NCBI RefSeq assembly: GCF_014192515.1 | Contig: NZ_JACHYB010000002.1 | Span: 434,001-498,000 of the forward strand | Origin: Microbacter margulisiae | GTDB taxonomy: Bacteria; Bacteroidota; Bacteroidia; Bacteroidales; Paludibacteraceae | Direction of reading: 5' to 3' | Length of the DNA stretch: 64,000 bases | Part shown: positions 21,037 through 39,527 of the stretch, piece by piece | How the letters are laid out: every line of letters begins with the position of its first letter | How positions within the stretch are numbered: position 1 is the first letter of the stretch | The notes under the pieces: generated by a model | The model's database searches: none | What the model saw: the letters and a program-made list of their open reading frames with translations, nothing else | What the model was told of the DNA's origin: nothing | Translations under genes and position numbers: made by a program

Positions 21037-22794
21037 TTACCACCCTTGATTTTGCACCAATCCAAATTTCAACACTTCACTATAAGGTATCGGTCCGTAA
21101 TCCATATAATCTTGATATGCTCTCTTTTCAACCGGAACAAACGTATAAGTTCCGTTTGAAATGGATACACCATTCGCTTCTTCTGTCAAATTCGCTTTCC
21201 AGCGCCGTAAATCCCAAAAACGAAATCCTTCAAAACACAATTCCAATCGTCTTTCGTTATGAATCAATGTCCGCATAGCATCTTTTGTAGTAATAGAAGC
21301 CAGATAGGCATCAGGCTGGGTAATGCCTGCCCTCTTACGTATGGCGGCTATCACATCCCGGGCAGAATAGCCCGATGGGCCTGTACCATCAGGACCCCAG
21401 GCTTCATTGGCTGCTTCAGCATAATCCAGATATATTTCGGTATAACGCATACGGGCATAGTAATGGATCTGTGAATTGGTGTTGGTCGGATTCAGATTGA
21501 CATCTTCCCGCAATAGTTTACGCATATAATAACCTGTACGTGTTGAAGTAGAAATTTGATTCAATCCATCATTGGTACTTCCGGTTCCTACCTGTGTATA
21601 AATAGGAGTATTACTCGGTCCTTCGGTACTCCCGTTGGTCACAATATAGAGGGCTAAACGAGGATCACGGTTTGCATACGGATGAGTTGGATCATAACCG
21701 CTGTTCGGATCTGTAATTGGGTAACCGTTAGCCATCGGAAAAGCATCTACCAAATTCTGGGTTGGATCAACACGGCCCTTACCATAAAGACTTGGTGGAT
21801 AATTATCTGATTCCAGACTATTGGAACTACCCACGTTGGTTCTCCAAAGAATCTCCTTAGGATTAAGTCCATTCTGTATATTATTAATTTCATTTGCATT
21901 CCGTTCCGCATACCAATAATCGCCATTAGATGCTAATCCCGATAAGCCCCCATTCAGATCAAGCACGGCAGCGGCAGAGTCGGCAGCGGCAGCCCATGAC
22001 ACATTGGTTCCCTGATTAAAAGCAGGACTGGCTGCCAATAGAGTAACTTGTGCGCTAATGACTTTAGCGATACGGGCAGACATCCGCTGGGTATTATACG
22101 CACCAAATACGCGATTATAGTCTGACACAGTAGTCTTTCCCGTATATTTGGCCGGTATTTGGCTTGTCGAACTAATATCGGAATAGTCAAGCGGTAAGTA
22201 ATACTCCGCCGAATCCAAATCGGTATAAATCTGGGTTAAACATTCGTCGAATGTATTACGTGGTACTTTGAAATTAGAAGTAACATCCTGCGGAGTTAAC
22301 AGGATAGGCACCCCCAAAAGTTTCCCATCAGCCGACCAGCCACCATGCGCCTGTAACAGATAATACATAAAAAGGGCGCGCATCCCATAGGCTTCCCCTT
22401 TAAACCTGTCATTAAACATCTGGGATACATATTCTCCGGTAGTAGCCCACGTTACCTTATCTGTATTAGCCAAAAACAGATTCAAATATTGGATGGCTGA
22501 ATAAGCGCTTGTCCATTGATCCATCGGATTATTTAAAGACGACCAGCTTCCCGTAGCCATCAGACGATAACTGTTCGTCGGGTCATTGGATACCGCATTA
22601 TCAGTAGCAACATCGTTATACGAATAGCCTGACGGCAATTTAACATAAGCGTTCAGTAAAAGCCCTTCCGCAAACGCAGGATCACTGTACACGCCATCCA
22701 GCGTACGATTATTTTGATCGGCAGGCGAGAACAGGTCTGAACAGCCGGACAAAATCATTGCCAACGCTACAAATATCAATAATTTATTTTTCAT
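21037..22794 (-). CDS. SusD/RagB-family xylan-binding lipoprotein (second pair)
   Basis: This is a 585-residue SusD-type outer-membrane lipoprotein. Its signal peptide ends ILSGC (Cys18). The N-terminal SusD-like domain has TPR-type helices (RFKGEAYGMRALFMYYLLQAHGGW), and the C-terminal RagB/SusD signature is present (IRKRAGITQPD, LIHNERRLELCFEGFRFWDLRRWKA). It forms the lid of the SusC encoded 28 nt upstream. A central stretch (MANGYPITDPNSGYDP, ANRDPRL) also occurs almost unchanged in the other SusD of this locus (25646-27520), pointing to an old duplication or a conserved xylan-binding loop. It should capture xylo-oligosaccharides and deliver them to its SusC partner. Confidence 0.96.
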   Translation of the reverse strand: MKNKLLIFVALAMILSGCSDLFSPADQNNRTLDGVYSDPAFAEGLLLNAYVKLPSGYSYNDVATDNAVSNDPTNSYRLMATGSWSSLNNPMDQWTSAYSAIQYLNLFLANTDKVTWATTGEYVSQMFNDRFKGEAYGMRALFMYYLLQAHGGWSADGKLLGVPILLTPQDVTSNFKVPRNTFDECLTQIYTDLDSAEYYLPLDYSDISSTSQIPAKYTGKTTVSDYNRVFGAYNTQRMSARIAKVISAQVTLLAASPAFNQGTNVSWAAAADSAAAVLDLNGGLSGLASNGDYWYAERNANEINNIQNGLNPKEILWRTNVGSSNSLESDNYPPSLYGKGRVDPTQNLVDAFPMANGYPITDPNSGYDPTHPYANRDPRLALYIVTNGSTEGPSNTPIYTQVGTGSTNDGLNQISTSTRTGYYMRKLLREDVNLNPTNTNSQIHYYARMRYTEIYLDYAEAANEAWGPDGTGPSGYSARDVIAAIRKRAGITQPDAYLASITTKDAMRTLIHNERRLELCFEGFRFWDLRRWKANLTEEANGVSISNGTYTFVPVEKRAYQDYMDYGPIPYSEVLKFGLVQNQGW

Positions 22795-22822: not shown

Positions 22823-25612
22823 TTAAAACTCAGCTTTGATACCGACATTATATAAACGTGTCTGTGGCGTAGTACCTACATTCAATTCCATAATCTTTCT
22901 GTTTTTAGCAAATGTGAGCAAGTTATTACCGTTAACATATATGTTGATGTTCTTCAGAGGAGAGTTAATCAACAACTTTTTAGGTAAGGTATATGTGAAC
23001 TGAACTTTTGAGAGATCAAAACGATCGGTACTATAGGCCCAAAAAGTGGAGTATTGGAAATTATTATTGCTACTCAGCGTGGTCAGCCGGGGATAGGTTG
23101 CCGTATTCTTCGTGGCATCCGTCCAACTGTTCAGGACAACGTTGGAATATTTTTCACTCCCATACACCCAGTAGTAACTGCCGCTCTTTATCCCTGTACC
23201 CCCATATTGGCCGGTTCCTAACGCAAAGAAGGTAAAATTCTTCCATTGTAGCGTAAGATTTACACCACATGTAAACGGACTTCCCCAACGTCCTATCATG
23301 ACCTGATCCCTTTGATCGATCACGCCATCCCCGTTTTCATCTTTATACTTGATATCACCGGGAGCTACGGTTCCGAATTCCTGTACTGCATGATTGGTAA
23401 TATCGTTCTGGTCAGCAAAAAAGCCTTGACTTACCAAACCAAAGATGGCATCAATCGGTTTCCCGGCACGATTCTGATATGAATTGGCATAAATCTCATC
23501 TACTTTTAATACTTTCGACGTAGCATACGTTCCGGCTGCGCCAACCATAAGGTTAACATCCCCGATTTTTTGACGGAAGTTTACCTGCACATCAAATCCT
23601 TTATATTGATCTTCCCCATAATTTGTATATGGCACAAAAGATGATGTAGGATAATAGGTATTAAAATAGCTGGGGTATTGTGTGAAACGCTGTTCAGGGA
23701 TACCCGTCTTATCAATCAAAAAAGCGGTTGCCTGAACACCTAATTGGTTATTGAAGAAGGACCCGTCTATATCCAGATTAACCTCTTTTCGTTTAGCATA
23801 GGATAAATGCTGATTATCACCATGCAATGCGGTAGTTGCTGAATTGGAATAAGAACCATCATGCCATGAATACCCATAAGAAGAATAATAAACGGGGTCA
23901 TACAAATAAAAGTTATTACTCAAATCCAGATCCGTATTGACAATACCGGCAGATGCCGACAGCTTCAAACGATCTACCACTTTAGAATGCTTCAAGAAAT
24001 TCTCCCCGGTTAGCAGCCAACCAAGGCTAAAGGTAGGAGAAAAGGCCACACGGGCGTTGGAGGGCAACAAGGTAGAATTCACAACCGCTCCACTAAAGTC
24101 AGCATAATACCGATGATCATAATTATATGCCAATTGCAACCCTAAGTTACTGTTCGTTTGGTATTGAAAATCTCCGGTTTGACGCTGAAGCGTACCTGAC
24201 CCAACCAACATTGCCGATACATTATTTAGGTTGAAGCTGTTTACATAATCCATATGCACGTTAAAATCAATGGTTTGATCTTCAAATACATTTCCTATAC
24301 TCTGAACGCGACTATTATTATCTGTATTATATTTTGTTAATCCGGTAATTGAATCGCCAGTCCATGTTGGTGAATAAACAGCATACTTAGTAGAAAGAGA
24401 ATCTGTATACGTATCCAAATAATCAATGCTAATCTGTCCATGAAACGATAGCCCTTTCAACGCTTGGCTGAGATCAGCATTAACGCCCGTTACATACTGA
24501 AACAGACGGGAAGTATTGGTTTTATATCCGCCGGCATACACATCGGAAATCGGATTGGTCATATATTGCTGAGTCCCGCCCAGCAAATAAAGTCCATCGA
24601 TGATGTTATGAGCGTTCTTAATATAGGTTTGACCATTGGTAGCGCTATTCGAAATCAAACTGATGGGGACAAACGGGGAAAAGTAGTTCGGTCGTAACGT
24701 TGCCGCATTTGACCAATAATTACCCATCGATGACCGACTATCATTAAATACAGTCGAGGTATGAACGAAAGCGTTTATAAAATCATTTAACTTCAATTCG
24801 ATGTTTCCGCGTATACTTAAACGAGAAGTGTTCTCATTGTTGCCTTCTCCAAATTTCAACAATGAATTTTGCCCCTGATAGTCAACCAAAGCATAAAACC
24901 GCGCACGCTCCGTACCGCCCGAAAATTCGGCATTAGCAGAATAAGAAGTGTACATCTTACGCAAATAATCCGATGAATAATAATTCACATCAGGATACTG
25001 ATATATATTGGAATGCGAAGCATACTTACTGATGGTAGCAGCATCATAAAGCGGAGATAATCCGTCATTCGTACAGGCCTGATTATAATAGGTCATATAG
25101 TCAGCCGACCCTAAATAAGTTGGATACTCTATCGGCACATTAACGCCTCCGTTAACCCGGATGTTTTTCTTGATTTTACCTACTTTCCCCTGTTTGGTTG
25201 TAATCAAGATCACACCGTTCGCGGCACGGCTACCATAGAGGACAACGGCATTCGCTCCTTTCAAAAAGGTGATCTGAGAAATTGCCGTAGTGGTAACATC
25301 TGTAATATTACCGGGCACACCGTCAATCAACACCAACGGCGTACCCAACCCCCAGAGATTGCTCCCGCCGATAAAGGCATTAACACCTTCCAGCGGATAG
25401 GTGCCATAATCTTTTTCCAGATAATCCGACGGATTCACTACCGAAATAGCGCCGGTCAGATCTTTCTTCTCAACCGTCCCGTAGGCCACATGCACCAAGG
25501 AATCGTTGCCGGAAATCATTGTTTGATTCGTATCAGCAGTCTGTCCTGCAACTTTAAAAAGCAAGCCAAAGAACATACCGCATAAAATCGTTCCTATTCT
25601 TATAAGTTTCAT
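22823..25612 (-). CDS. SusC/RagA TonB-dependent transporter, short form lacking the N-terminal carboxypeptidase-like domain
   Basis: This is a 929-residue outer-membrane receptor. After the signal peptide (about 1-24) the protein goes almost directly into the plug (YGTVEKKDLTGAISVV about 45-60; PLVLIDGVPGNI; YGSRAANGVILITTKQGKVG), then a 22-strand barrel ending in Phe (VGIKAEF). The CarboxypepD_reg-like domain that opens both other SusC proteins in this window is missing, as is the usual DVVVVGYG run at its end. The transporter is otherwise complete and has the calcium-loop-like DENGDGVIDQRDQ. It is preceded by SusD (33 nt) and followed by its own SusD (28 nt). Short SusC proteins as the second member of tandem pairs are known in xylan loci. 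It probably imports a different size or decoration class of xylo-oligosaccharide. Confidence 0.95.
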   Translation of the reverse strand: MKLIRIGTILCGMFFGLLFKVAGQTADTNQTMISGNDSLVHVAYGTVEKKDLTGAISVVNPSDYLEKDYGTYPLEGVNAFIGGSNLWGLGTPLVLIDGVPGNITDVTTTAISQITFLKGANAVVLYGSRAANGVILITTKQGKVGKIKKNIRVNGGVNVPIEYPTYLGSADYMTYYNQACTNDGLSPLYDAATISKYASHSNIYQYPDVNYYSSDYLRKMYTSYSANAEFSGGTERARFYALVDYQGQNSLLKFGEGNNENTSRLSIRGNIELKLNDFINAFVHTSTVFNDSRSSMGNYWSNAATLRPNYFSPFVPISLISNSATNGQTYIKNAHNIIDGLYLLGGTQQYMTNPISDVYAGGYKTNTSRLFQYVTGVNADLSQALKGLSFHGQISIDYLDTYTDSLSTKYAVYSPTWTGDSITGLTKYNTDNNSRVQSIGNVFEDQTIDFNVHMDYVNSFNLNNVSAMLVGSGTLQRQTGDFQYQTNSNLGLQLAYNYDHRYYADFSGAVVNSTLLPSNARVAFSPTFSLGWLLTGENFLKHSKVVDRLKLSASAGIVNTDLDLSNNFYLYDPVYYSSYGYSWHDGSYSNSATTALHGDNQHLSYAKRKEVNLDIDGSFFNNQLGVQATAFLIDKTGIPEQRFTQYPSYFNTYYPTSSFVPYTNYGEDQYKGFDVQVNFRQKIGDVNLMVGAAGTYATSKVLKVDEIYANSYQNRAGKPIDAIFGLVSQGFFADQNDITNHAVQEFGTVAPGDIKYKDENGDGVIDQRDQVMIGRWGSPFTCGVNLTLQWKNFTFFALGTGQYGGTGIKSGSYYWVYGSEKYSNVVLNSWTDATKNTATYPRLTTLSSNNNFQYSTFWAYSTDRFDLSKVQFTYTLPKKLLINSPLKNINIYVNGNNLLTFAKNRKIMELNVGTTPQTRLYNVGIKAEF

Positions 25613-25645: not shown

Positions 25646-27520
25646 TTAATACCCGGGGTTTTGTGGGAATGTTACATACAAGTACACATCTTTTGTTGGT
25701 ATTGGTAACCAATAATTGAAGTCATGGAAAACACGGGTCAGAATTACCCTTTTCGTCATATTTACCGGCTCATAATGAATTCCGGGACTCGGTATTTCAG
25801 AGGCAGGTACAGATACAGTTCCACGATCAAAATCAATCGCTGTCTTTTCCAAGTATTGCTTATTATCCCACAACATCCAACGACGCAGGTCGTTAAAGCG
25901 AATATCCGCTTCAAACGAAAGTTCCACGGCTCGTTCACGAATAATCTCGCTCATAAATTTCTGAGGGTCACTAACGTAAGCCGAACCCACCGGACCAACT
26001 CCTGCACGGGTACGTATTTTATCCACTGCCTGTTCAGCCGTTAAATTATATCCCGGCGCAGTGCTGGTGGCCGAACCATACCCTTGCAATACCGCTTCGG
26101 CATACATCAGATAGACATCCGACAAGCGCATATAAGCCAAATGCATATAGCCTCCACCGGAATAATTGTCAATATTATTACAGGTCATTGGGGTAAACTT
26201 TCTTATTAAATAACCTGTACGGCCACTACTAGCGCCTCCATTATACGTTCGATCTTCACCGCTGGTATAAAGCGCTATATCGCGATAATGTTCTTTGTCA
26301 GCCGGGGCAGCACCATAAATTTGCTGATCGCCGTCAATTACAATGTCGTGATAGAAACGCGGGTCTCGGTTTGCCCATGGATTATTGGGATCATAACCTG
26401 AATTCGGATCTGTAATAGGCAATCCATTGGCCATGCCGTAGTTATCTACATAATTGGCATTGGGTGATACATAACCTCCACCTATTGATGAAGCGCTAAA
26501 GATAGATGCAGGTCCCCAGGGGCAACCATCCAACCAAGTACCAAATGCAGAATACGTAAACACATCCTCCTGGTAACCTGGCATTTGACTAGAACCCCCA
26601 CTCCAGAAAAGGTTGGAGTATTGGCTGAAGGGAACCAAATGAAGCCAACTCTTCCCATTGTCCACATACTGTAACATCTCTGCAAAGGCAGCCGCCGCTT
26701 TCTGGCAATAGCCTTTATTATAGGTAGCACTACCTGTCGATTCCTTATTCATTAAAGGACTGCCGGCATACAGATAATCTTTCCCTAAATAGCCTAAACA
26801 CATCATTTTGTTAATTCGCAACGTATTATTTCCTTTGGTTGCAGCGCCGGTAGCCGTACTATCCCAATCAACAGGCAATAGATCGGCTGCTGCTCTAAGA
26901 TCTTTCGCTATGGAATCGGCAGTTTGCTGATAGGATAACCGAGGAATAGCCAGATTGTCAGTAGGTGATAGTACATGCGTAATATAAGGTAAGCCACCAA
27001 AATAAGAGGACAATTCAAAATAAAACCAACCCCGGAAAAACAGTAACTGACCTTTAATGAAATCCTTCTGTTCTTGCGTAGCATCCGTCAGTTTATCCAG
27101 ATTTTCCAATCCAAGATTAACATCACGAATACCAGCCCATGCATTTGGCCATAAGCCTTCCGCACCTCCAGCTGACGCAGTATGAACATTCCCATCACCA
27201 TTCAGCCATGAAGGAATCCATCCTTCCTGCCAGCCCCAATAATCTCCTTCATCAAATTTATCATCTACCCATGCTCCACCAACACTATTAATAGCTTCAT
27301 CTCCCATCATCCAGTTGTCCGCCCAAGTGACAGCGGTATAGTCGGGGACTAAAGCATAGATCTGCTCTACATATCCTTGAAAATTGGTGAAATTAACAAA
27401 AGCATCCGTTGAAGAAACCACCGAATCGGGAGTTCTGTCCAAATAGCTTGTACACGAGGTGAATCCAAACATTAACCACATTAGGATAATCCCTCCGATT
27501 ATATTTATATGTTTTTTCAT
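25646..27520 (-). CDS. SusD/RagB-family xylan-binding lipoprotein (first pair)
   Basis: This is a 624-residue lipoprotein with signal peptide ending FGFTSC (Cys23). The SusD fold markers are TPR-type helices (FIKGQLLFFRGWFYFELSSYFGGLPY), the loop MANGLPITDPNSGYDPNNPW, and the C-terminal signature IRTRAGVGPVG, IIRERAVELSFEADIRFNDLRRWML. The gene sits 10 nt after the upstream SusC gene and 33 nt before the short SusC, so the pair is tightly coupled. Its partner is the 1045-residue SusC. By synteny it corresponds to XusB, a xylan-binding surface protein; aromatic residues that would form the binding platform cannot be assigned without a structure. Confidence 0.96.
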   Translation of the reverse strand: MKKHINIIGGIILMWLMFGFTSCTSYLDRTPDSVVSSTDAFVNFTNFQGYVEQIYALVPDYTAVTWADNWMMGDEAINSVGGAWVDDKFDEGDYWGWQEGWIPSWLNGDGNVHTASAGGAEGLWPNAWAGIRDVNLGLENLDKLTDATQEQKDFIKGQLLFFRGWFYFELSSYFGGLPYITHVLSPTDNLAIPRLSYQQTADSIAKDLRAAADLLPVDWDSTATGAATKGNNTLRINKMMCLGYLGKDYLYAGSPLMNKESTGSATYNKGYCQKAAAAFAEMLQYVDNGKSWLHLVPFSQYSNLFWSGGSSQMPGYQEDVFTYSAFGTWLDGCPWGPASIFSASSIGGGYVSPNANYVDNYGMANGLPITDPNSGYDPNNPWANRDPRFYHDIVIDGDQQIYGAAPADKEHYRDIALYTSGEDRTYNGGASSGRTGYLIRKFTPMTCNNIDNYSGGGYMHLAYMRLSDVYLMYAEAVLQGYGSATSTAPGYNLTAEQAVDKIRTRAGVGPVGSAYVSDPQKFMSEIIRERAVELSFEADIRFNDLRRWMLWDNKQYLEKTAIDFDRGTVSVPASEIPSPGIHYEPVNMTKRVILTRVFHDFNYWLPIPTKDVYLYVTFPQNPGY

Positions 27521-27530
27521 GTATCTAATT

Positions 27531-30500
27531 TTAAAAAGTTACATTAAGTCCACAAGTTATCCGTTTCACAAGGGGATAGGCTGTACTTCCAGCGGTATTT
27601 ACCTCGCGGCTGTCCGGCATATGTGTCCACAAGAACAGATCTTCACCATTCAGGTAAGCACGAAGCGAATTAATCCCATATTTTTGCAACCACTCTTTCT
27701 TGAACGTATAAGCCAATTGCACATTCTTTAAGCGGAGATAGGACCCGTCATATAAGTACAGTGTTGATCCGGTATAGTCCATATGAGAGTCCCATCGCGG
27801 CATCGGAACATTTCCATTTTGATCGGTCTTCGTCCAATAAGAACCCTGTTTATAGACATTGTCCAAGCTACCTGAGAAGCTTGTCAACTGCATATAACGG
27901 CTTACATCATTCACTCCATAGAACATGACGCTCAGACTGAAAGCTTTCCAGTCACACCCTACAGTAGTTGTAAATGTATTCTCCGGATAAGAGGGATAAC
28001 TATAAGGAGCTGAATCTTTATTATCAATCTTACCATCTCCGTTAAAATCGATAATGTTCAGATTACCGGGCAACTTCTCTGTATCATATGTATTCAATTG
28101 GGTACTGCCATAAACCTGATCCCAGTTATTGTAGTAGCCTCCCGTTACATAGGAATAGTTTTGCCCGACCGGCTTACCTGCTGATTTCCGATAAGCATCA
28201 TACAATTGAGGATCGTCGGCATAAATTACCTGGTTTCTGGCATGGGTCATATCAAAATTCCCCCAAAGTCTGAGATTCTTGTTGATCTGTTTATTAAGAC
28301 GGATCACCAACTCATACCCAATGTTACGCACAATCCCGAGGTTAGCCGCTGCAGGAGTCGTACCGAAGTAGGAAGGTACAGTTGGGGTCATAAGAATATC
28401 CGTCCGTATATCACGAAAAACATCAAAATTTCCGGCAACTAAACCTCCCAGGAAAGCATAATCAACACCAGCATTTGTTTTTGTTACTTTTTCCCAATGA
28501 ATATCCGAATTACCTTGTTGTGTCACATACCACCATTGATATGGATTACTAGCGTATGGATTTGTTCCTAAAGGAAGAGTTCCGCCATATCCCCAGCTTG
28601 TCATATAAAGCCAACGGTTATAATACCCATTCATATTATCCGAACCTACTTGTCCCCAGGAAGCACGCAATTTTAGCATATCCAGGAATTTCATCGGTTT
28701 CATGAATTTTTCATTTGTAATCATCCATCCGAGAGCAGCAGAGGGAAAGAAAGCAAAGCGATGGCTCGGCCCAAATTGTTCCGATCCGTTGTAGGCTCCA
28801 TTCACTTCAGCAAAATATTTCTCCGCATAATTATAGGTAAAGCGACCCACCCAGTCTTCGCGGTAATGAGGCACTTCGCTTCCGGTAGCATACTGGTCGC
28901 GGCTAAACAATCCCATACCGGTAACATCATGCTTGCCGAATTTTTTGGCATAGTTCAATTGCAATTGATAAAACGTATGGCGATAAGTAGCGTCCGGACT
29001 AACATCTGCATCTGCATTAGGCGACCAACGAGAAGGTATCCAATTGAATTGATTGGTTCCTAAATAACTGCTCTGTGTTACTTCGCCTGTTACCGGATCA
29101 ATATAGGTTTGTTGGACATTACCGTTGTCATAAATTCCTCCCACGGAAACAAAGGTATTGTCATACGAAAGCATTCCCTGCGCCGACAATCCATCTAAGA
29201 TCATACTCAGATCCTGCTTCAAGGTAAAGTCCGTATTGATCTGTTTTGTAGTAGTATACCTGATCCCATTGTTAGACAACGTTAATGCTGAATTGATGGT
29301 TCCTACTGTGTTTGGAGGATAATAGCCCCACGATCCGTCTGAATAGCGAGGATAATACACATCAGGAGGATTACTATAGATGCTTTGCCAAATCCGGTAT
29401 TCCCATGAATCCTGGTTGTATGCATCCTGCACTACTCCATATGAACCGGCCAAATCGGCCTTCAGGGTAGTGGTTCTTGTCAAATTAAAATCCAAATTAC
29501 TTCGAACATCCAGGCGCTTAAAACCATACCCTCCCGTATATCCTTTACCATTGGGGTAATGTTTCAAAATATCACCTTCATCCTCATAGTCAACCGAAGT
29601 AAAATATTTCACCTCCGGCGTCCCACCTGAGATATTCATATTAACATTGTGATCCATGGCAGCTTTCCTTACCAATGCATCCTGCCAATTGATATTGGGG
29701 TACTGTTCAGCCTGCGCCAGAGTAGTCTGATTACGATATTCATTAAGTGTAGCATTCGGCATATATTTCCCCCATGCGGCAGGATACAAGCCTAATTCAC
29801 GTTCAATGGACTCATTCCGAATACTGAGTGCATCATACGAATCATATTTAGAGGCTAACATCTGGGGCATCTTCACTGTAGTATTGACCGTAACCGAAAT
29901 ATTAGCCTTCCCCTCTTCCCCTCGTTTCGTGGTAATCAGGATAACTCCATTGGCTCCCCTTACGCCAAACACAGCTGTTGCCGAAGCGTCTTTTAACACG
30001 GATATACTCTCTACATCATTAATATTAACACTGTTTATATCGCGTTCAATACCATCCACCAAAATCAATGGGGATGTATTATTCCAGGTACTTTCGCCCC
30101 GGATTAAGATTTGAGGTGTTTCATCTCCCGGTTTTCCAGTTGTAGTCATCGTAATAACACCCGGCAAGTTACCTGTTAAAGCAGACCCCAGATCAGGTAA
30201 ACCGACTGACTTTGCAAGCTGTTTCCCGGATGTCTGGACGATAGCCCCAACCACACTTTGTTTTTTCTCTTGTCCATATCCCACAACAACCACATCATTT
30301 AAATTAACGTTGTTGGGTATCATATCAACAGTAAAAAAATTCTTACCTTTTGTGTCAATCTCTTGCGGTTTATATCCCACATAAGAAATAACGATTACAG
30401 GTTGTTTCATGGGTACGTTTAATGTGAACCTACCGTCAACATCTGTTACCGTACCGATTTTCAGATCTCCCTTCACCACTACTGTAGCGCCAATCATAGG

Positions 30501-30668
30501 CATATTCTTTTCATCGAACACCTTTCCTTTGACTGTATACATGTTTTGCGCAACAAGAGCAGAACTTAATAAGGAAAGCATTGACAGAATGAAAAATCTT
30601 ACCAGTGTCAATCTCCCTCTCTGCACTCTTAGAAAGCAAATTGGTATGTTTTTATCATTATGCTTCAT
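27531..30668 (-). CDS. SusC/RagA TonB-dependent transporter (first pair)
   Basis: This is a 1045-residue outer-membrane transporter and the first gene of the core xylan operon. An extended N-terminus (about 1-40) carries the signal peptide (FFILSMLSLLSSALVA), with M29 as a possible shorter start. A CarboxypepD_reg-like domain follows (about 43-125; VKGKVFDEKNMPMIGATVVVKG), then the SusC hallmark LNDVVVVGYG, the plug (PLILVDGIERDIN, VFGVRGANGVILITTKRGEEG) and a beta-barrel ending GLNVTF. It imports xylo-oligosaccharides across the outer membrane with TonB-ExbBD energy. It corresponds in order to XusA. Upstream lies an unusually long (about 870 nt) AT-rich leader between this gene and the conserved promoter module. 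Confidence 0.96.
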   Translation of the reverse strand: MKHNDKNIPICFLRVQRGRLTLVRFFILSMLSLLSSALVAQNMYTVKGKVFDEKNMPMIGATVVVKGDLKIGTVTDVDGRFTLNVPMKQPVIVISYVGYKPQEIDTKGKNFFTVDMIPNNVNLNDVVVVGYGQEKKQSVVGAIVQTSGKQLAKSVGLPDLGSALTGNLPGVITMTTTGKPGDETPQILIRGESTWNNTSPLILVDGIERDINSVNINDVESISVLKDASATAVFGVRGANGVILITTKRGEEGKANISVTVNTTVKMPQMLASKYDSYDALSIRNESIERELGLYPAAWGKYMPNATLNEYRNQTTLAQAEQYPNINWQDALVRKAAMDHNVNMNISGGTPEVKYFTSVDYEDEGDILKHYPNGKGYTGGYGFKRLDVRSNLDFNLTRTTTLKADLAGSYGVVQDAYNQDSWEYRIWQSIYSNPPDVYYPRYSDGSWGYYPPNTVGTINSALTLSNNGIRYTTTKQINTDFTLKQDLSMILDGLSAQGMLSYDNTFVSVGGIYDNGNVQQTYIDPVTGEVTQSSYLGTNQFNWIPSRWSPNADADVSPDATYRHTFYQLQLNYAKKFGKHDVTGMGLFSRDQYATGSEVPHYREDWVGRFTYNYAEKYFAEVNGAYNGSEQFGPSHRFAFFPSAALGWMITNEKFMKPMKFLDMLKLRASWGQVGSDNMNGYYNRWLYMTSWGYGGTLPLGTNPYASNPYQWWYVTQQGNSDIHWEKVTKTNAGVDYAFLGGLVAGNFDVFRDIRTDILMTPTVPSYFGTTPAAANLGIVRNIGYELVIRLNKQINKNLRLWGNFDMTHARNQVIYADDPQLYDAYRKSAGKPVGQNYSYVTGGYYNNWDQVYGSTQLNTYDTEKLPGNLNIIDFNGDGKIDNKDSAPYSYPSYPENTFTTTVGCDWKAFSLSVMFYGVNDVSRYMQLTSFSGSLDNVYKQGSYWTKTDQNGNVPMPRWDSHMDYTGSTLYLYDGSYLRLKNVQLAYTFKKEWLQKYGINSLRAYLNGEDLFLWTHMPDSREVNTAGSTAYPLVKRITCGLNVTF

Positions 30669-31537
30669 TGTATTAAATATTTTTTTTAATATATAGATAA
30701 CGTAATTTTTTATGGCTAATTAATTTATTTTAAAATATCTACCATCTAAAACACTGAATTGCTAGCTATCGTCATAAAATCTCTTCATATGCACATATAA
30801 TTTAAGGTTAACACTCTAACAAACATCTCTCTTTTTAATGCCTTAAAAATAACCATATACCTTGACAAACATTACCGTTTCCCCACCACCTTATACTTCC
30901 TATGTCTAAAATCCATAGGGTAATGTAGGAAAAACATAAACTTGTTCATTTCAAAACATAAACTTGTTAACAAGATAATTGCTACACTATCTTTACCTGC
31001 TTCATACCAGGACACCTTTAACTGAAACCCCTGAAACACGACAATTGACAGGCAGAGCCGAAAAACCAATCACTACAAAGCAAAATAAGAATATCACCTT
31101 TTCAAATTTTCAAAGCAACAAAAACTTGTCTATTATTAAGTATATCACAATTTCTATTTGAAAAATAATATTTTTCTTCGCTTAGAATCAGATTCATGCT
31201 GTCTGTAGAAATCCCGGTAAAGTCTTTTGAAAGATGATAAGATCACAATTTTATCGAAAGAAACTTCATCCTTTATTCAGAACAGCCAAAACCACATAAA
31301 CAAAACGGAAACACTGGCAAGTCACGGTTTTTTGAATCTAAATCCACTATGGATTATATCAATTGAATGACGTCTGAGGAAATAGCATAGGGAAATCAAT
31401 CCCAAACTGCTCTTATAAATGTATGTTTCATAGTTGGACGATTAAATGATTAATAATTGAAATACATTTCGAAACTAAACAAGAGGGTCTTCAAAGAAAT
31501 ATAGAAGACATCTTGTTTTTCTTACAATAAATCGCTA
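30669..31537 (-). other. Long non-coding leader/regulatory region of the core xylan operon
   Basis: About 870 nt separate the SusC start from the -7 box of the shared promoter module. No convincing coding sequence is present; a 65-codon frame at 30872-31069 has no recognisable homology or start signal. The stretch contains one pair of 16-nt direct repeats (listed separately). It may be a long 5' leader, or hold a second, closer promoter that I could not identify. Confidence 0.5.
30931..30968 (-). promoter_or_regulatory. Pair of 16-nt direct repeats upstream of the core operon
   Basis: On the minus strand AACAAGTTTATGTTTT occurs twice, perfectly, at 30953-30968 and 30931-30946, 22 nt apart (two helical turns). 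The outer copy is flanked by the palindrome CTTGTTAACAAG. It lies about 260-300 nt before the SusC start. It could be a protein-binding site; no protein can be assigned. Confidence 0.45.
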
Positions 31538-31644
31538 CAAATATAGCAAGTGTTTATTTTACACTCATAAATCAGGAAACAAAAACTAAAAGTATTGTAA
31601 CATAAATATCCTTTTTGATACTATTTCTGTAGATTTTGATTCAA
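31538..31644 (-). promoter_or_regulatory. Conserved promoter module, copy 1 (ahead of the SusCDCD operon)
   Basis: A -7 box TATATTTG (minus strand, 31545-31538) matches the Bacteroides TAnnTTTG consensus. A 33-nt block at 31612-31644, identical to 42339-42371, lies 66 nt upstream of it. The spacer also shares words with copy 2 (TTTATGAGTGT, TTGTTTCCTG, AAACACTT). The 33-nt block holds ATCAAAA twice at 21-nt spacing. I saw no good -33 TTTG, which fits a promoter needing an activator. It probably responds to the locus HTCS. Confidence 0.7.
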
Positions 31645-31729
31645 ACCCTTCCAAAATACGATTTTAACTTTCCAATCACATCAATTTAACATTCTTATTT
31701 CTAAGCATTTCCTTCCATCCAAAGTATCA

Positions 31730-32947
31730 CTAATGAAACGTAGTAATGCTTTTAGCAGGCAATGTATAAATAAAGGCATTATTTACTAATGAAACTGTTC
31801 CCTCTGGTTTCATATTTTCACTACTGGAAGTCCTATTGACGTTCATTGTATCTGAGATCGACAAGTTCAGACATGAAAACGTCTGGCTCACGGGCAATCC
31901 TCCAGCATTAACCGCTACAATAACGATTTTATTGTTGTTACCGCGATAAGCCGTTATATAAACATTAGAAACCGGATTGTACGTACAACTGATCCGGACA
32001 TATCCCGGGCGTACCCATTTTGCAAACTGTCCGATTGTATAACCATTCTTGTAAATCGTTCCGTCATGATATACCAGATTCACATTCGTATCGTTATCGT
32101 AAACCCACCACCAAAAATAGGCGCTCATTTGGTTATACATACATTCACTGATTTCTTTAGCAATGCTCATACATGAATCAATATTGCTTTGCCCGTCTAT
32201 ATAATGTTCGGTCATCCATACATGCTTGCCGTGGTTAATTGCATTTTGATGAACATAGTTACCTCCGCCATAAATGTGCCCGCCAATGTAGGCAATCTTA
32301 CCCACAGTTGATGTATCATTCAAAGCAGGATCTGTATAGGCATCATTGAAACAAAAAGATTCTGCATATACTATTGGTTTCCCAATAATAGAAGAGTAAT
32401 TTTTCAAAAAAGACAACATTTGGTCAGCACTCCATGAAACTACACCTTTCGGGTCGATATAACCCATATCAGGTTCATTCTGAAAGGAAACATAGTCAAG
32501 GTCAATACTATCCGCCGCGTCTTTCAACCATGAAGCATAATTACTGTAGTATTGTGGGAGCAAGTAGCCACCAGTACTTTTCCCATTACTATTCCATGCC
32601 GGAGGAGGAGACCATTCTGAGCCTAATACCTTAACACCAACTGCATGAGCTGCAGCGGCATTGGCAATTTCATCTGCCCAATATTTGTTTTCATCAATAC
32701 GAATCCGCAACAAAGAAAAGCCAAGTGTATCATAAAGTGCATTATTTTTAGCAATAGTAAGCACTCCACACCATGCACTGGAAAAGCCAAAACCGTCAAT
32801 AGTCTGGTAGGAAGTGCCACCATCAATCACTGCTGTGGATTTTATTGTATCTTGTGTATATTGCTCAGGAATGCTTTGTTCCATCTCTTTGGCACATCCA
32901 GTTAATCCCAAGCATACTGCTATAACAATCAACACCTTCGTTTTCAT
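31730..32947 (-). CDS. GH30 xylanase lipoprotein (GH30_8-like glucuronoxylanase)
   Basis: This is a 405-residue lipoprotein (lipobox LGLTGC, Cys18) with a GH30 catalytic barrel from about 40. Acid/base Glu158 is in VSFQNEPDM and nucleophile Glu247 in VWMTEHYIDG. The family's C-terminal beta-sandwich follows (about 320-405). The sequence pattern (GFGFSSAWCG, GSEWSPPPAWNSNG, FWWWVYDNDTNVNLV) is that of GH30 xylanases, the group that includes glucuronoxylan-specific enzymes recognising the uronic acid branch. The lipid anchor suggests outer-membrane placement, so it may make the first cuts outside the cell. It is the last gene before the SusC operon and is separated from the GH43 gene by a repeat-filled gap. 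Confidence 0.9.
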   Translation of the reverse strand: MKTKVLIVIAVCLGLTGCAKEMEQSIPEQYTQDTIKSTAVIDGGTSYQTIDGFGFSSAWCGVLTIAKNNALYDTLGFSLLRIRIDENKYWADEIANAAAAHAVGVKVLGSEWSPPPAWNSNGKSTGGYLLPQYYSNYASWLKDAADSIDLDYVSFQNEPDMGYIDPKGVVSWSADQMLSFLKNYSSIIGKPIVYAESFCFNDAYTDPALNDTSTVGKIAYIGGHIYGGGNYVHQNAINHGKHVWMTEHYIDGQSNIDSCMSIAKEISECMYNQMSAYFWWWVYDNDTNVNLVYHDGTIYKNGYTIGQFAKWVRPGYVRISCTYNPVSNVYITAYRGNNNKIVIVAVNAGGLPVSQTFSCLNLSISDTMNVNRTSSSENMKPEGTVSLVNNAFIYTLPAKSITTFH

Positions 32948-33398: not shown

Positions 33399-35378
33399 CT
33401 ATTCTGTAAAAACAAAGTCCTTTAATACAAATAATTTAGCGGCTTTATCACCTGTGAATTTCAGATAAACATCATGGCGTCCGGTAGTAGGAATGGTTCT
33501 GGCGGTAAAAGTCTTTATGTTTGCCAAACTGCCTGTATTCATAATTTTACAAGTGGCAATTTTCTTCCCTGTGCCTATTGAATCCAGCCATACCTCTACG
33601 TTACCACCTTTCGTAATACAAGAAGCAGAGATTGAGATCATATGGGAAATTTTTTCATAACCCTTGTCTCCAAATTCAACTCCAGCATATAATGCCCAAT
33701 CATTATTATGAATATTATCCAATAGCGCAATTCCGTTAGGTAATACTGTGTTTGTTGTTCCAAATTGATTAGCCGGACACGCTGCAAGAATAGGAGTATA
33801 AGCATCGCGGTATATATACAAATCAAAATCAGCAAAATTTGCTCCCTGTACATATAATCCCTGTCTGTTTCCAGACCATCCGTTATAGTTACGACTAAAC
33901 CGATCAAGTGTTTCTACATTAATCTTATGGCCAACAGGTTTCCATTTTATTCCATCTGAACTGAAAAATCCAGTTAGTTCATGCTCATCTCGTACCAATT
34001 TTAACCACACGGTATTCCCAAACGTATTGGCAACTTCATAACGGGCTTTATTAAAGCTAAAACAAATAATCTTTTGGCCTTGATTATTGACTGTACAATA
34101 TATTTTGGCAAACAAATCTTCCATGCCATTTATAATCCTTATCCCAGCTTCATCTGATATGGACTTTGGATTGAAATCCAGACGTGTTATTAATGAATAG
34201 TTATGCTCAGCATCTGTTTTTATAACTGTATTAGCCTTGGTCGGGCTTTTAGGGAACAGCCTTAACCAACCTGGCCTGGCTGTAAGAGAGTAAAGTGAAT
34301 TTGGAGTATACCCCAGGAAGGACCATTCCGGAGAAAGTGTTTTCTCATTAAAAAAATCAGATTTAGGAACCATCCATGGAATGCCACTAGAGGGAAGTAA
34401 TGGCGCTTTTTTTGCTGTATTCGTCGGATAATCTGCAATAGCATTATTGTCAGAATCATATCTTACCTGATTTAGCAATCCTTGCCGTCCTTGCCCATAC
34501 CATTCATTATTATTTGCTCTCGCCCAAAGAGGATGCAAAAGCCAACTTGTACCATCTTTTAATTCTACTACTGCCGAACAATGATTTGGGTTAAAAAAGA
34601 TCGATTTATCCTTATTCGGATCATTTTCATTAAATAAGTCTACCGGCGTAGTCCAGGCAGACTTATCTGCGGTTAGTATTTTACTTCGCATAACTTTCTG
34701 CCCACCTGACACATCCCGGGCAAAGGAGTAATAATAATAGCCGTTGTGTTTCCACATAACAGGACCTTCAGCCCAACTATACTTAAAAGGAGGTCCGGGA
34801 TTTAGCCAATTGAGATTATATACCACACCGGTTGGCTGCCCACTCATATTCAATTCGACAATCGCGTTATTGGATTGTCCGTTTTTAACAACCAAATACC
34901 ATTTCCCATTATCATCAATAAATACTGAATTATCATAGCCAAGGCCAAATGGAAGCTGAGGCGGATTATTGATTTTAACCGGCATGCTCCATGGCCCCTG
35001 GGGCTTATTTGCAGTAACAAAATACATCGTATTCGCTCTGGAGAAAAAATCCCAATACTTATTATTGTAAAACACCATTTGTCCTCCCCAGCAACCACCG
35101 GTAGGATTATCCCCATACAAAGGCCATGCTGCGGAAACCGGTTGGGCAATGGCTTCCCAATGAACTAAATCTGTCGAATGATAAATGACAGGAGTCGGAT
35201 TAAATGAAGAACCGGTGGTATAAAAATCCTTCCCGATTTTAGTTAGTGTACAATCCGAATGATCTCCGGGAATTACCGGATTCATGTACGTTTTAAACGA
35301 AGGAGATTGAGCTACTCCTGCCAAGGAGAGCATTAAGCCGCTTAAGCCAATAAGAATAGTTGTAATGTTCTTTTTCAT
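33399..35378 (-). CDS. GH43 enzyme with beta-sandwich and C-terminal CBM6-like domain
   Basis: This is a 659-residue secreted protein with signal peptide about 1-23. The GH43 propeller (about 28-335) has the pKa-modulating Asp in GYDNSVFIDD and the acid Glu in SWAEGPVMW. At the base position the usual PDP motif reads SDC (Asp42, with Cys43 replacing Pro). A concanavalin-like sandwich follows (about 350-525), then a CBM6-like jelly-roll (about 540-659; WALYAGVEFGDKGYEKI, GRHDVYLKFTG). The likely activity is xylosidase or arabinofuranosidase on decorated xylan, with the CBM6 binding the chain. The gene is 266 nt after the cytoplasmic-type GH43. The Pro-to-Cys change looks like a subfamily feature because the rest of the active site is intact. 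Confidence 0.9.
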   Translation of the reverse strand: MKKNITTILIGLSGLMLSLAGVAQSPSFKTYMNPVIPGDHSDCTLTKIGKDFYTTGSSFNPTPVIYHSTDLVHWEAIAQPVSAAWPLYGDNPTGGCWGGQMVFYNNKYWDFFSRANTMYFVTANKPQGPWSMPVKINNPPQLPFGLGYDNSVFIDDNGKWYLVVKNGQSNNAIVELNMSGQPTGVVYNLNWLNPGPPFKYSWAEGPVMWKHNGYYYYSFARDVSGGQKVMRSKILTADKSAWTTPVDLFNENDPNKDKSIFFNPNHCSAVVELKDGTSWLLHPLWARANNNEWYGQGRQGLLNQVRYDSDNNAIADYPTNTAKKAPLLPSSGIPWMVPKSDFFNEKTLSPEWSFLGYTPNSLYSLTARPGWLRLFPKSPTKANTVIKTDAEHNYSLITRLDFNPKSISDEAGIRIINGMEDLFAKIYCTVNNQGQKIICFSFNKARYEVANTFGNTVWLKLVRDEHELTGFFSSDGIKWKPVGHKINVETLDRFSRNYNGWSGNRQGLYVQGANFADFDLYIYRDAYTPILAACPANQFGTTNTVLPNGIALLDNIHNNDWALYAGVEFGDKGYEKISHMISISASCITKGGNVEVWLDSIGTGKKIATCKIMNTGSLANIKTFTARTIPTTGRHDVYLKFTGDKAAKLFVLKDFVFTE

Positions 35379-35644: not shown

Positions 35645-36613
35645 TTAATTCCTCCCGTCAATGGTACGGATAGTTCCATCTTCATTGTATTCCAGTTCAA
35701 TCACTTTTATGCTTCGCAGCCAGGTCTTACCGCCCGATGGCACGCTGTCGTGGTAAAACAAATACCATTTCCCCTTAAACTCCACAATCGAGTGGTGGGT
35801 AGTCCAGCCAACTACCGGAGTTAGGATAACTCCTTTGTAGGTAAAGGGACCGTAAGGAGTGTCTCCCACCGCATAGCACAGTCTATGGGTGTTTCCCGTG
35901 GAGTAGGAATAGTAGTATTTTCCCTGATATTTATGTAGCCAGGAAGCCTCAAAAAAGCGGCGATCATGATCACCGGCCTTGAGCTTTTCCCCGTTTTCAT
36001 CCAGGATAATAACTTCACGCGGATCCTCGCCGAATTCGAGCATATTTTCGCTCAGTTTCGCCACACGCGAAGGCAATGCCGGTTCATCATCCTTGGGTTC
36101 GTGACCGCATTCAATTGCCTTGTTATTCCGGTACCGTTGAAGTTGCCCTCCCCATAACCCGCCAAAGTAAATATAGTGGGAACCATCATCGTCGCAGAAC
36201 ACACAAGGATCTATCGAATAACTCCCCTTGACAGGCGCCTCCTGCGGAATAAAAGGCCCTTCCGGCTTATCGCTGATAGCAACTCCAATATGGAAAATAT
36301 CGGTTTTATCTTTCAGAGGGAAATAGAGATAGTATTTGCCATCTTTGAAAGCTACATCACAATCCCATAATTGGCGTCCCGCCCAGGGAATATTGTTTAT
36401 ATCAAGTATTACGCCATGATCGGTAACTTCCCCATCCATGGTTTCCATGGAAAAAACATGGTAATCCCGCATATCGAAATGATCCCCGTTATCATTCTCA
36501 GGAATACCCGATTCAATATCGTGTGAAGGATAAATATATAGCTTCCCGTTAAAAACATGAACCGCCGGATCAGCCGTATATAAATGATCGACGAGGTATC
36601 TTGGTTTTTTCAT
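35645..36613 (-). CDS. GH43 beta-xylosidase/arabinofuranosidase without signal peptide
   Basis: This is a 322-residue single-domain GH43 enzyme. It starts MKKPRYLVDHLYTADPAVHV with no hydrophobic leader, so it is probably cytoplasmic. Catalytic residues are Asp15 (TADPAV), the Asp in YSIDPCVFCDDDG and the Glu in RFFEASWLHKYQGKYY. The compact form and signature resemble the GH43 subfamily 1 enzymes common in Bacteroidales xylan loci, which cleave short xylo- or arabinoxylo-oligosaccharides. That role fits its place two genes after the inner-membrane symporter (38052-39527): import, then intracellular cleavage. It begins 65 nt after the GH10 gene, so they are likely co-transcribed. Confidence 0.92.
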   Translation of the reverse strand: MKKPRYLVDHLYTADPAVHVFNGKLYIYPSHDIESGIPENDNGDHFDMRDYHVFSMETMDGEVTDHGVILDINNIPWAGRQLWDCDVAFKDGKYYLYFPLKDKTDIFHIGVAISDKPEGPFIPQEAPVKGSYSIDPCVFCDDDGSHYIYFGGLWGGQLQRYRNNKAIECGHEPKDDEPALPSRVAKLSENMLEFGEDPREVIILDENGEKLKAGDHDRRFFEASWLHKYQGKYYYSYSTGNTHRLCYAVGDTPYGPFTYKGVILTPVVGWTTHHSIVEFKGKWYLFYHDSVPSGGKTWLRSIKVIELEYNEDGTIRTIDGRN

Positions 36614-36678: not shown

Positions 36679-37815
36679 TTAGTGACATTTCATGGCTGCA
36701 TCAATAATCTTTTGAACAACGGGTTTTGGTTGGTTGTTACGATCGAACAACAACGGATAATCTGTCCGTCCTCTTACAGGCCAGTTATTTCTCCACGAAT
36801 CTCCATCATTCACGCCCCAAACAGTAACCCGTGAAATTACATCCCTATGCTTTAAAAAGAGCTTGAAAAAATCCAGATAGCGTTTTTCCAGGAGTACATT
36901 TACTGAATCGGGCAATCCTCCGGCATATGGATTCAGTTTCTTTTCGTATTCAAAATTGTTGGAAACGTCAGCTCCCATGTGTTGCTGGGGAGGCGGCAAT
37001 ACGGTAATGTCCATTTCTGAAATTATTACCTTGACACCCAATGAGCCAAACGCCTCTATGCTTTTTTCAAACTCGTTAATATCCGGATAATCCAATCCTA
37101 TATGGCACTGCATACCTACCCCGTCTATTCTTATACCTTCCGACTTCAATTTTTTTACCATGGCTACAACAGCATTGCGTTTTGCGGGATTGGCCATGGA
37201 ATAGTCATTATAATACAGCTCTGCATTGGGGTCTGCCTCATGTGCAAACTCATAAGCCAGTTTGATGTAATCGGCGCCGATAATTCGATAAAATTTATTT
37301 TTCCGGTATGATCCATCATCCATTATGGCTTCATTTACAACATCCCATCCTTTCACTTTCCCTTTATACCGGCCAACCAGGGTCATGATGTGTTTCTTCA
37401 TCCGCTCAATCAACACTTCCCGTGAAACATCATGTCCCAGGCTGTCTGTGAAAAACCAGGGAGGAGTCTGTGAATGCCATACAAGCGTATGTCCCGTGAT
37501 AAACAGATGATTTCTCATACCAAAATTTACAAACCGGTCAGCCAAGCTAAAGTTAAAAACGCCTTCCTTGGGTTGAATGACACCGCTTTTCATACAATTC
37601 TCCGGAACAATGGCGCTAAATTGTTCTTTTACCACACGAAGTGCCGCCGTATCTCTTCCTGTGATCTGATCAGCATTAAGAGCGGTTCCAATATAAAATT
37701 TTCCGGCAAAAGCCTCTTTCAGGGTGAGTTGCTTTTGATTCATCTTACCCATTGCCAAGGAATTCATTGCCAAGGGTATCAACATAATAATCCCAATAAG
37801 TCCTCTTTTTTTCAT
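36679..37815 (-). CDS. GH10 endo-1,4-beta-xylanase (second copy)
   Basis: This is a GH10 barrel of about 378 residues. Numbered from the upstream Met at 37827, acid/base Glu166 is in WDVVNEAIMD and nucleophile Glu271 in VIISEMDITV; GHTLVWHSQTPPW is the substrate-binding block. I chose the ATG at 37815 (MKKRGLIGIIMLIP) because GGAG lies 6 nt before it and the signal peptide then starts normally; the upstream start adds only MEIN. It differs clearly from the GH10 at 18436, with an insertion after the nucleophile (PPPQQHMGADVSNN), so the two probably prefer different product sizes or decorations. It is flanked by the symporter and the cytoplasmic GH43. Confidence 0.94.
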   Translation of the reverse strand: MKKRGLIGIIMLIPLAMNSLAMGKMNQKQLTLKEAFAGKFYIGTALNADQITGRDTAALRVVKEQFSAIVPENCMKSGVIQPKEGVFNFSLADRFVNFGMRNHLFITGHTLVWHSQTPPWFFTDSLGHDVSREVLIERMKKHIMTLVGRYKGKVKGWDVVNEAIMDDGSYRKNKFYRIIGADYIKLAYEFAHEADPNAELYYNDYSMANPAKRNAVVAMVKKLKSEGIRIDGVGMQCHIGLDYPDINEFEKSIEAFGSLGVKVIISEMDITVLPPPQQHMGADVSNNFEYEKKLNPYAGGLPDSVNVLLEKRYLDFFKLFLKHRDVISRVTVWGVNDGDSWRNNWPVRGRTDYPLLFDRNNQPKPVVQKIIDAAMKCH

Positions 37816-37849
37816 ATTTATCTCCATATATTTAGTTTCTTCTTAAATC

Positions 37850-38051: not shown

Positions 38052-39527
38052 TCAACCTTCAGATTTTTCCCTTCGGGCAAGCAAATCTTTTTGTATTTGT
38101 ACTTCCTTTTGCTTATTAATTTCATAAAAAAACAAACAGGCGACACTTACACAAAAAGTCAGGGTAGGATAGACGCTGAGTGATAGTTTGATGCCATGAA
38201 TCGTTGCCGGGGATTGAACCGCTAATTGTGCATTATACCCATAAATTGCCAGAAGGCCCGCAACCAAAGCGCCTCCGATACTTAACCCGGCCTTCAGACC
38301 GAAAATCATGGCAGAGAAAATAATGGCGGTAGCTCGGCGATGGTTTTTCCATTCCGAATAGTCCGCAACATCTGCAATCATGGCCCAAAGCAAAGGTGTG
38401 GAAATGCCATAAAAAAATCCATGGGCAAGTTGTGTCAGAAAAACCAATGGAATAGACTTTGGCCCATAAAAATAGAACATGAATAGGCAGAGAGCTGAAA
38501 TGAAAAGACTGACACCGAAAACATCCCGTTTCCCAAAACGGTCCGCTAGTGGTTTGGAAACCATGATGCCAACAATCATCATAATGATGCCTCCCGCATT
38601 AAACAGGCTAAACCCTGAGGTCGCGGCATCCTTCGGCCAGATAAAACCGCTTAGTCCCATGCTTGTTAAAAGGTGATTCAGGTTGCTGATAAAACCGTTA
38701 AACCCGATATGTTCCAAAAACTTTGCCAGATAGTCTTTATCGAGGTAATCATTAAAATAGTAAACATACATGCCTCCCTTCAGGGAGAGTGTGATGAAAA
38801 TAAAGATTGTCAGAATTAACATGGCAATCCACGGCTTGTTCTTCGACAGGTCTCCAAGATCTTCTTTCACACTTGATTTTTGTTCGGGCTTGGGGACAAT
38901 ACGTTCTTTGGTGGTCAAAAAAGTAATGATAAAGAAGATCACTCCCACAATAGCAAATAGGGTAATCGTATGTTCAAAGCCTATCGTTTTGTTGCCATTG
39001 CCCAAAATCAACACCAGGGGCAACAATAATCCCTGAACAATAAACTGGGCAATCATAACAGCCACGAAACGGTAGGAAGAAATACTGTTGCGCTCGGCCA
39101 TATCGCCTGTTAACACACCGCTTAGGGATGCATAGGGGAGGTTATTTGCCGAGTATATGATCACCAAAAACATATACGTAATCAATGCATAGGCCACTTT
39201 GCCCCCAGGACTGAATTGTGGAGTACTGAAAGCAAGCATGGCAATAATACCAAAAGGCACCGCAGTCCATAAAATCCATGGACGGAATTTCCCCCAGCGG
39301 GTCATCGTCCGGTCCGCTATAAGCCCCATGATAGGGTTGAATGATGCTCCTAACATCCCACCGGTAAATATAATGGCGGATGCAGTGGCCGGAGGTAGTT
39401 TGTACACATCGGTATAAAAAAAGGCCAGGAAGGTCATCAGCGTCTGAAATATAAGATTCGCTGCAAGGTCCCCAAGGCTATATCCAATCTTTTCGATCAC
39501 CGAAATCTTTTGCGCGTTGACACCCAT
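38052..39527 (-). CDS. GPH-family xyloside:cation symporter (MFS fold)
   Basis: This is a 491-residue inner-membrane protein with about 12 hydrophobic segments. The N-terminal signature (YSLGDLAANLIFQTLMTFLAFFYTDVY) and the loop GLIADRTMTRWGKFRPWILW are typical of glycoside-pentoside-hexuronide:cation symporters (MelB/XynB group). It would carry xylose, xylo-oligosaccharides or a hexuronide into the cytoplasm with Na+ or H+. Its neighbours are a GH2 lipoprotein upstream and a GH10 and a leaderless GH43 downstream, so the substrate is probably a short xylo-oligosaccharide cleaved inside. A 15-20-residue N-terminus precedes the first helix; no signal peptide is expected. Substrate is inferred from context only. 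Confidence 0.93.
   Translation of the reverse strand: MGVNAQKISVIEKIGYSLGDLAANLIFQTLMTFLAFFYTDVYKLPPATASAIIFTGGMLGASFNPIMGLIADRTMTRWGKFRPWILWTAVPFGIIAMLAFSTPQFSPGGKVAYALITYMFLVIIYSANNLPYASLSGVLTGDMAERNSISSYRFVAVMIAQFIVQGLLLPLVLILGNGNKTIGFEHTITLFAIVGVIFFIITFLTTKERIVPKPEQKSSVKEDLGDLSKNKPWIAMLILTIFIFITLSLKGGMYVYYFNDYLDKDYLAKFLEHIGFNGFISNLNHLLTSMGLSGFIWPKDAATSGFSLFNAGGIIMMIVGIMVSKPLADRFGKRDVFGVSLFISALCLFMFYFYGPKSIPLVFLTQLAHGFFYGISTPLLWAMIADVADYSEWKNHRRATAIIFSAMIFGLKAGLSIGGALVAGLLAIYGYNAQLAVQSPATIHGIKLSLSVYPTLTFCVSVACLFFYEINKQKEVQIQKDLLARREKSEG

Follow-up and report, generated by a model that had tools for sequence, protein, structure and literature searches.

XynR of Prevotella (Segatella) bryantii, which Miyazaki et al. 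reportedly described in 2003, is said to be an HTCS required to induce the xylan utilization genes. HTCSs are dimeric kinases fused to AraC-type activators, and their DNA binding is described as phosphorylation-dependent (PMC11253607). In B. thetaiotaomicron, the predicted motifs of 16 HTCSs were all two-site direct repeats, on average about 21 bp, or two helix turns, apart (PMC3878776). The HTCS BXY_29350 of PUL 43 of B. xylanisolvens XB1A controls, directly or indirectly, two operons and distant GH2, GH67, GH10 and transporter genes (PMC4855328), and a syntenic locus with tandem SusC/SusD, GH10 and HTCS genes has been described in S. copri and P. bryantii (PMC11784079). The sigma-ABfr promoters carry TAnnTTTG at -7 and TTTG near -33 (PMC7366714).

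The window analysed here, a stretch of 64,000 nucleotides from Microbacter margulisiae, holds a xylan region whose genes were on the minus strand; xylan is the probable substrate judging from the presence of GH10, GH43, GH115, GH30 and uxuA. The following genes surround the promoters described below:

14176-18297, minus strand: HTCS of 1373 aa (Pfam: two-component propeller, Y_Y_Y, HisKA, HATPase, receiver, AraC-type HTH)
19972-21012, minus strand: DUF5627/BT_3987-like protein, end of operon A
21037-22794, minus strand: SusD2 (Pfam)
22823-25612, minus strand: SusC2 (Plug domain only; 25% identical to SusC1 by tblastn, rows with query coverage below 40% filtered out)
25646-27520, minus strand: SusD1 (Pfam)
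27531-30668, minus strand: SusC1, first gene of operon A
31730-32947, minus strand: GH30, end of operon B (GH30 C-terminal domain, E 1.7e-6)
33399-35378 and 35645-36613, minus strand: two GH43 genes, the former with CBM6
36679-37827, minus strand: GH10 (b)
38052-39527, minus strand: MFS_2-type sugar symporter
39754-42186, minus strand: GH2, first gene of operon B
42805-45699, minus strand: GH115 alpha-glucuronidase
45739-46935, minus strand: UxuA mannonate dehydratase
47407-48222, minus strand: uxuB-like short-chain dehydrogenase, first gene of operon C

The last of these we take to be uxuB, from its place beside uxuA. The single polypeptide encoded at 14176-18297 joined a periplasmic propeller/Y_Y_Y sensor to kinase, receiver and AraC-type HTH domains, the architecture of the HTCS family, and its gene, the presumed cognate HTCS gene, was within the locus of the promoters. 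Several other features of the region were observed. The GH2 gene had a second copy on the same contig (window 39755-42132 vs. G000:C2:1290963-1293374, locus L075 6000-8377; 99.0% over 2378 nt). The two copies differed in N-terminal start and upstream region, and the second had no HTCS array, which points to a recent event, either duplication or gene conversion, confined to the coding part. Dispersed intergenic repeats (47099-47407, 58738-59171 and 63675-64000) were 82-93% alike, in both orientations, several of them with AACCCTTCCCCCTGCGGGT; one copy was located between uxuB and uxuA, and another in L075. A dextran-type locus (48625-58652: DUF6377 regulator, SusC, SusD, SusE and GH66 dextranase) adjoined the region, and the half-site scan found no array ahead of it.

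Three putative promoter modules were found in the window. As the earlier note had described, the first (A) faced the SusCDCD operon and the second (B) the GH2-symporter-GH10-GH43-GH30 operon; the third (C) was absent from that note:

Module A, 31538-31642, minus strand, facing SusC1-D1-C2-D2: half-sites GAATCAAAA (31634-31642), GTATCAAAA (31613-31621), GTTACAATA (31593-31601) and GTTTCCTGA (31572-31580); -7 box TATATTTG (31538-31545, minus strand)
Module B, 42264-42369, minus strand, facing GH2-MFS-GH10-GH43-GH43-GH30: half-sites GAATCAAAA (42361-42369), GTATCAAAA (42340-42348), GTTACAAGA (42320-42328) and GTTTCCTGT (42299-42307); -7 box TACTTTTG (42264-42271, minus strand)
Module C, 48362-48467, minus strand, facing uxuB-uxuA-GH115: half-sites GTGTCATAA (48459-48467), GTATCCATA (48438-48446), the degenerate GTGTTCTAT (48418-48426) and GTATCCAAA (48397-48405); -7 box TACTTTTG (48362-48369, minus strand)

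Each module was a row of direct half-sites (consensus TGTATCAAAA) at 0, 21, 41 and 62 bp on the transcribed (minus) strand, followed by a TAnnTTTG box at +97 (A) or +98 (B and C). The core, GAATCAAAA-N12-GTATCAAAA on the minus strand, was a direct repeat in a 21-bp register; this register is the published signature of HTCS activators and favours an HTCS as the reader of the modules. HTCS promoters are recognised by at least one pair of direct repeats with a spacing of about 21 bp, and such repeats were present; spaced by about two helical turns (21/20/21 bp), the half-sites would all lie on one face of the DNA. The box was the only TAnnTTTG on the minus strand in each of the three leader stretches, and the 35-36 nt searched ahead of it held no TTTG near -33 in any of the three modules, a feature expected of promoters that depend on an activator. 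Module A began 87 nt past the GH30 stop codon, with its -7 box 877 nt from the start of SusC1, and the box of B was 85 nt from the start of GH2. Module C, 147 nt ahead of uxuB, was a diverged member which had half-sites in common with A and B but no overall similarity to them. The 877-nt SusC1 leader (30669-31537) had no ORF of 100 aa and no match in the seven other genomes of the genus, and its counterpart in G001 was about 100 nt long. A short palindrome common to A and B, AGTGT-N7-ACACT, separated the fourth half-site from the -7 box (31549-31565 and 42276-42292), was not seen in the other aligned promoters, and is a possible operator of a second factor.

The identity of 31612-31644 to 42339-42371 over 33 nt, on which the earlier note had based a duplicated module of about 107 nt, was borne out, together with the minus-strand TAnnTTTG boxes 66 and 67 nt beyond it. 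The match was longer than the note had described, extending without gaps over 116 bp at 84% identity (31548-31663 vs. 42275-42390), and its flanks were unrelated to each other. The local-alignment score of A against B was 137, whereas 1000 Markov-2 shuffles of both gaps reached 35 at most. A search of the whole 3.56-Mb genome for the 30-nt core pattern with up to three mismatches returned only A and B (reversed-pattern control, 0), and the many unrelated copies that would have spoken against a regulon-specific promoter were thus not found. A 201-bp query over copy A gave, besides copy B, only one weak 42-nt match in the genome, to the upstream flank. This short weak repeat of the flank of A (C1:2132093-2132134 of the genome; L003 1501-1542 and 1818-1859) was present in two copies spanning no more than 360 nt, and the stretch around them held no ORF of 90 codons. 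Eight short DNA matches outside the genus (L006-L013; same family or order) were set aside: they were 26-45 nt long, and seven of the eight overlapped frames of at least 90 codons.

For the scan of the window on both strands, a half-site matrix was built from five promoters, all from other, related genomes with the orthologous HTCS. B ranked first with 26.4, followed by A with 24.7 and C with 22.7 (site 1 of C at 48467), and the -7 box was perfect in all three; 20 single-strand shuffles of the window peaked at 17.3, or at 0.6 when a perfect box was required. The proposal of at least two control points was therefore supported, with C as a third. Later scans used a matrix of seven promoters (28 half-sites), with site p-values from leave-class-out sets and the partial copy of G002 kept out of every training set; 30 single-strand shuffles of the window peaked at 12.8 with this matrix. 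The seven promoters first aligned had G, and C four bases on, in 28 of 28 half-sites at offsets chosen by eye, and because the offsets were first picked on these same promoters, p-values inside the training classes are optimistic. With the leave-class-out matrices, sites 1 to 4 were each significant in A and B (p 0.001-0.012), and sites 1, 2 and 4 in C (p 0.004 or lower), site 3 not being significant. The other SusC promoters of the genus had three to four significant sites (site 4 p 0.016-0.066, the highest in G001), the uxuB class three (site 3 p 0.06-0.41), G196 four (p 0.001-0.013), G031 three (site 4 not significant), and G077 two (sites 2 and 4 not significant).

In 1.25 Mb of fetched, partly overlapping loci, the matches scoring above 14 with a box of at least 5/6 were the three modules, HTCS-bearing loci or uxuB promoters. 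Matches outside the training set were found ahead of uxuB in G007 (28.9) and G005 (25.4), SusC in G077 (24.6) and GH43 in G031 (23.7), in G002 (20.2), and at a GH115-GH43-GH43 operon beside the HTCS of G196, from another family of the order (31.0), which also had a weak match (15.8) at its HTCS gene. The SusC promoter of G006, a close ortholog of training promoters, scored 42.5; scores for this and the later-fetched loci are the two best per locus, and those for G005 and G002 the one best. The SusC promoters of G001, G003, G006 and G007 shared the repeat, spacing and TAnnTTTG distance, and the array was directly ahead of uxuB in G001, G006 and G007. A C-type array was ahead of a 77%-identical uxuB in G005, and uxuB-type arrays were at contig ends in G003 and G002, where the gene itself was not seen. 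The sites were thus conserved ahead of orthologous or regulator-linked operons, and the recurrence of half-sites and spacing at loci with orthologous HTCSs lends support to the earlier suggestion that this is a regulon-specific promoter probably read by one activator. The half-site scan gave no array at the GH2 orthologs of G001, G003, G006 and G007 (68-69%), so the content of the regulon has shifted. A search of genome contigs with SusC1 as query found no relative. With the HTCS alignment, 27 loci were obtained: the two strong array matches were re-finds of G001 and G003, L177 (HTH 45/84) had a weak perfect-box match (16.6), L193, without a matching HTH, scored 17.0 (box 5/6), and the other 23 scored 11.1 or lower (two best per locus). 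A profile match in G004 (E 0.0026) was not counted, since its half-site score was -3.5, and a MAFFT alignment of 12 promoters was slipped by one repeat and left out of the modelling.

Sequence-only profiles were made for the SusC/GH2 and uxuB promoter types and each was searched in 61 genomes, in which the filters of a large search may lose weak sites. The models contain A, B and C, so that their matches in the genome (E 1.1e-20 and 1.2e-23 for A and B, 9.3e-23 for C) are by construction; the next-best matches in the same genome, among those listed, had E 0.086 and 0.10. The view of the 42-kb region as one regulon was upheld for three operons only. No array was among the top window matches at GH10a (18436-19503), the HTCS gene, or the 2167-14126 cluster (GH43/GH5, esterase, GH39, GH3, SASA), where read-through or constitutive expression is therefore likely; the HTCS of the similar S. 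copri locus is reported to be constitutive (PMC11784079). Over the first 68 nt of the module, A and B agreed at 59 positions, A and G002 at 51, and B and G002 at 53, which indicates that A and B separated after the split from G002 or have been homogenised since. The upstream flank of G002 aligned better with that of A (score 87) than with that of B (48), so that G002 probably holds the ortholog of A. To judge from these comparisons, the earlier note was right to call the module duplicated: A and B are products of a fairly recent duplication of one promoter, and C is an older member.

The HTCS orthologs of four genomes of the same genus were 59-60% identical, and their loci held GH43, GH115, GH10 or uxuAB genes (tblastn rows with query coverage below 30% filtered out). 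Over the 84 HTH residues, identity to the M. margulisiae HTCS (84) was 76 in G005, 73 in G003 and G006, 72 in G001 and G007, 62 in L185 and 53 in G196. Among the genomes whose HTCS had at least 53 of 84 identical HTH residues, seven of eight had a scanned array, five of these seven (M. margulisiae, G001, G003, G006 and G007) having also supplied training promoters. The array and the HTCS fragment of G005 were on different short contigs. L185, the nearest HTH outside the genus, was missed by the scan, and only two half-sites, 21 bp apart, 36 nt ahead of a 5/6 box and directly before SusC, were found there by eye. For 27 other HTCSs, two loci (G077 and G031) scored above 20; G093 was found by an earlier consensus scan only, and G148, next in rank (50/84), had no array match in the scan. 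The DNA around each HTCS locus differed in extent, so some misses may be unseen promoters. Four HTCS paralogs of the genome had 32-35 of 84 identical HTH residues; the best scores within 20 kb around two of them were 12.6 and 6.1, and for the remaining two, covered by short loci, no score exceeded 14. Residues 1182-1185 of the HTCS receiver read NHIP. The S/CHIP sequence is part of a motif predicting an inhibitory receiver-HTH contact (PMC11253607), and the receiver-HTH interface may differ in this clade.

From the observed sequence, spacing and conservation of the arrays and their linkage to a regulator gene, we infer that A, B and C are very probably activator-dependent promoters of one xylan regulon, in which the product of the HTCS gene at 14176-18297 binds to the arrays and switches on the three operons. 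This HTCS would sense a xylan oligosaccharide in the periplasm, and its AraC-type domains, tethered as a dimer, would bind pairs of half-sites. The proximal half-site would sit immediately upstream of the position expected for a -33 element, and the half-site pair closest to the promoter, bordering the -33 region on its upstream side, would recruit RNA polymerase. The -7 box, with transcription predicted to start about 7 nt beyond it, may be read by the Bacteroidetes housekeeping sigma factor without a TTTG -33 box. Import would fall to the SusCDCD operon and both depolymerisation and uptake to the GH2-symporter-GH10-GH43-GH30 operon, while glucuronic acid would be released and catabolised by the products of the uxuB-uxuA-GH115 operon. 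We propose, tentatively and with more doubt than confidence, that the fixed array of four half-sites accommodates two adjacent dimers in steps of 21/20/21 bp, its distance from the -7 box being constant, that array strength, set by which half-sites are strong (1 and 2 in A and B; 2 and 4 in the uxuB promoters), grades or orders the three operons, and that new operons join by copying the promoter cassette, as A and B may have done.

The likeness of A and B might reflect only a recent duplication or gene conversion that has not yet eroded, most of the 116 bp being functionless. The closer agreement of A with B (59/68) than with G002 (51/68) is in keeping with this, and spacer 1 (12/12) and the stretch to the -7 box (21/24) were also alike in A and B, but the homology stops at the promoter, between unrelated flanks, the half-sites and spacing recur in other genomes with differing spacers, and C has the half-sites without overall similarity; we consider this explanation unlikely. 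Chance similarity or a dispersed repeat is hardly credible: AT-rich gaps favour spurious matches, and there was the weak 42-nt match to the upstream flank of A at C1:2132093, but the shuffles did not exceed 35 against a score of 137, the core matched twice in the genome, and the next-best profile matches among those listed reached only E 0.086 and 0.10.

The reader of the modules might instead be the DUF6377 regulator, a SusR-like or AraR/XylR-type factor, or another HTCS of the genome. The DUF6377 gene (48625-50274) adjoins module C divergently and other HTCSs are present, but no relative of DUF6377 was found (tblastn E 1e-3 or lower) in 15 loci from genomes in which at least part of an array was present, the gene borders the SusC-SusD-SusE-GH66 dextran-type locus, and four HTCS paralogs combine low HTH identity (32-35/84) with no array match in the 20 kb around two of them and the short loci of the other two. 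Direct repeats at 21 bp also fit an HTCS and not palindrome-binding factors, which counts against another regulator, and such a reader is therefore improbable. It is more improbable still that the block acts in RNA, as a leader element, riboswitch or small RNA common to the two transcripts. The very long gap of 877 nt between copy A and SusC1 speaks for such an element, but in all three modules the block precedes the -7 box and should therefore be outside the transcript, Rfam gave no match up to E 0.1 in 30500-31800, and A and B shared no leader after the box. Activation of the three operons by the HTCS encoded at 14176-18297 is thus the reading that we retain.

These modules provide a concrete and transferable candidate DNA site for a clade of putative xylan-sensing HTCSs, with a spacing rule and a -7 box, and would link import, depolymerisation and uronate catabolism to one sensor. 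They also offer a case of a regulon growing by promoter duplication, and the half-site matrix, together with the HTH residues, offers a means of predicting the xylan regulons of other Bacteroidales. The control design was already known; what is modestly new is the row of four sites, the fixed spacing between this row and the -7 box, and the duplication of the promoter. No array of four half-sites and no xylan HTCS site were found in a partial survey of the literature on HTCS sites, and the HTCS-regulon section of PMC3878776 holds no xylan HTCS motif.

The perfect TAnnTTTG of A, B and C resembles sigma-ABfr promoters, whereas the lack of TTTG between half-site 4 and the box sets them apart (PMC7366714). 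This HTCS would, like XynR, serve the induction of xylan utilization genes. As with BXY_29350, one HTCS would serve SusC/D operons together with GH2, GH10 and transporter genes for xylan use; control by BXY_29350 was established with a mutant and RT-qPCR, with no DNA site described in the portion of PMC4855328 concerned, and the second cluster, a separate locus in B. xylanisolvens, is adjacent here (PMC4855328). The modules share with the HTCS motifs of B. thetaiotaomicron, which are assigned to AraC-type HTCSs, the direct repeats of about 21 bp and the position ahead of susC/D and glycosidase operons that belong to the same locus as the regulator, but differ from their two conserved sites in having up to four half-sites, spaced 21/20/21 bp, at a fixed distance from the -7 box (PMC3878776).
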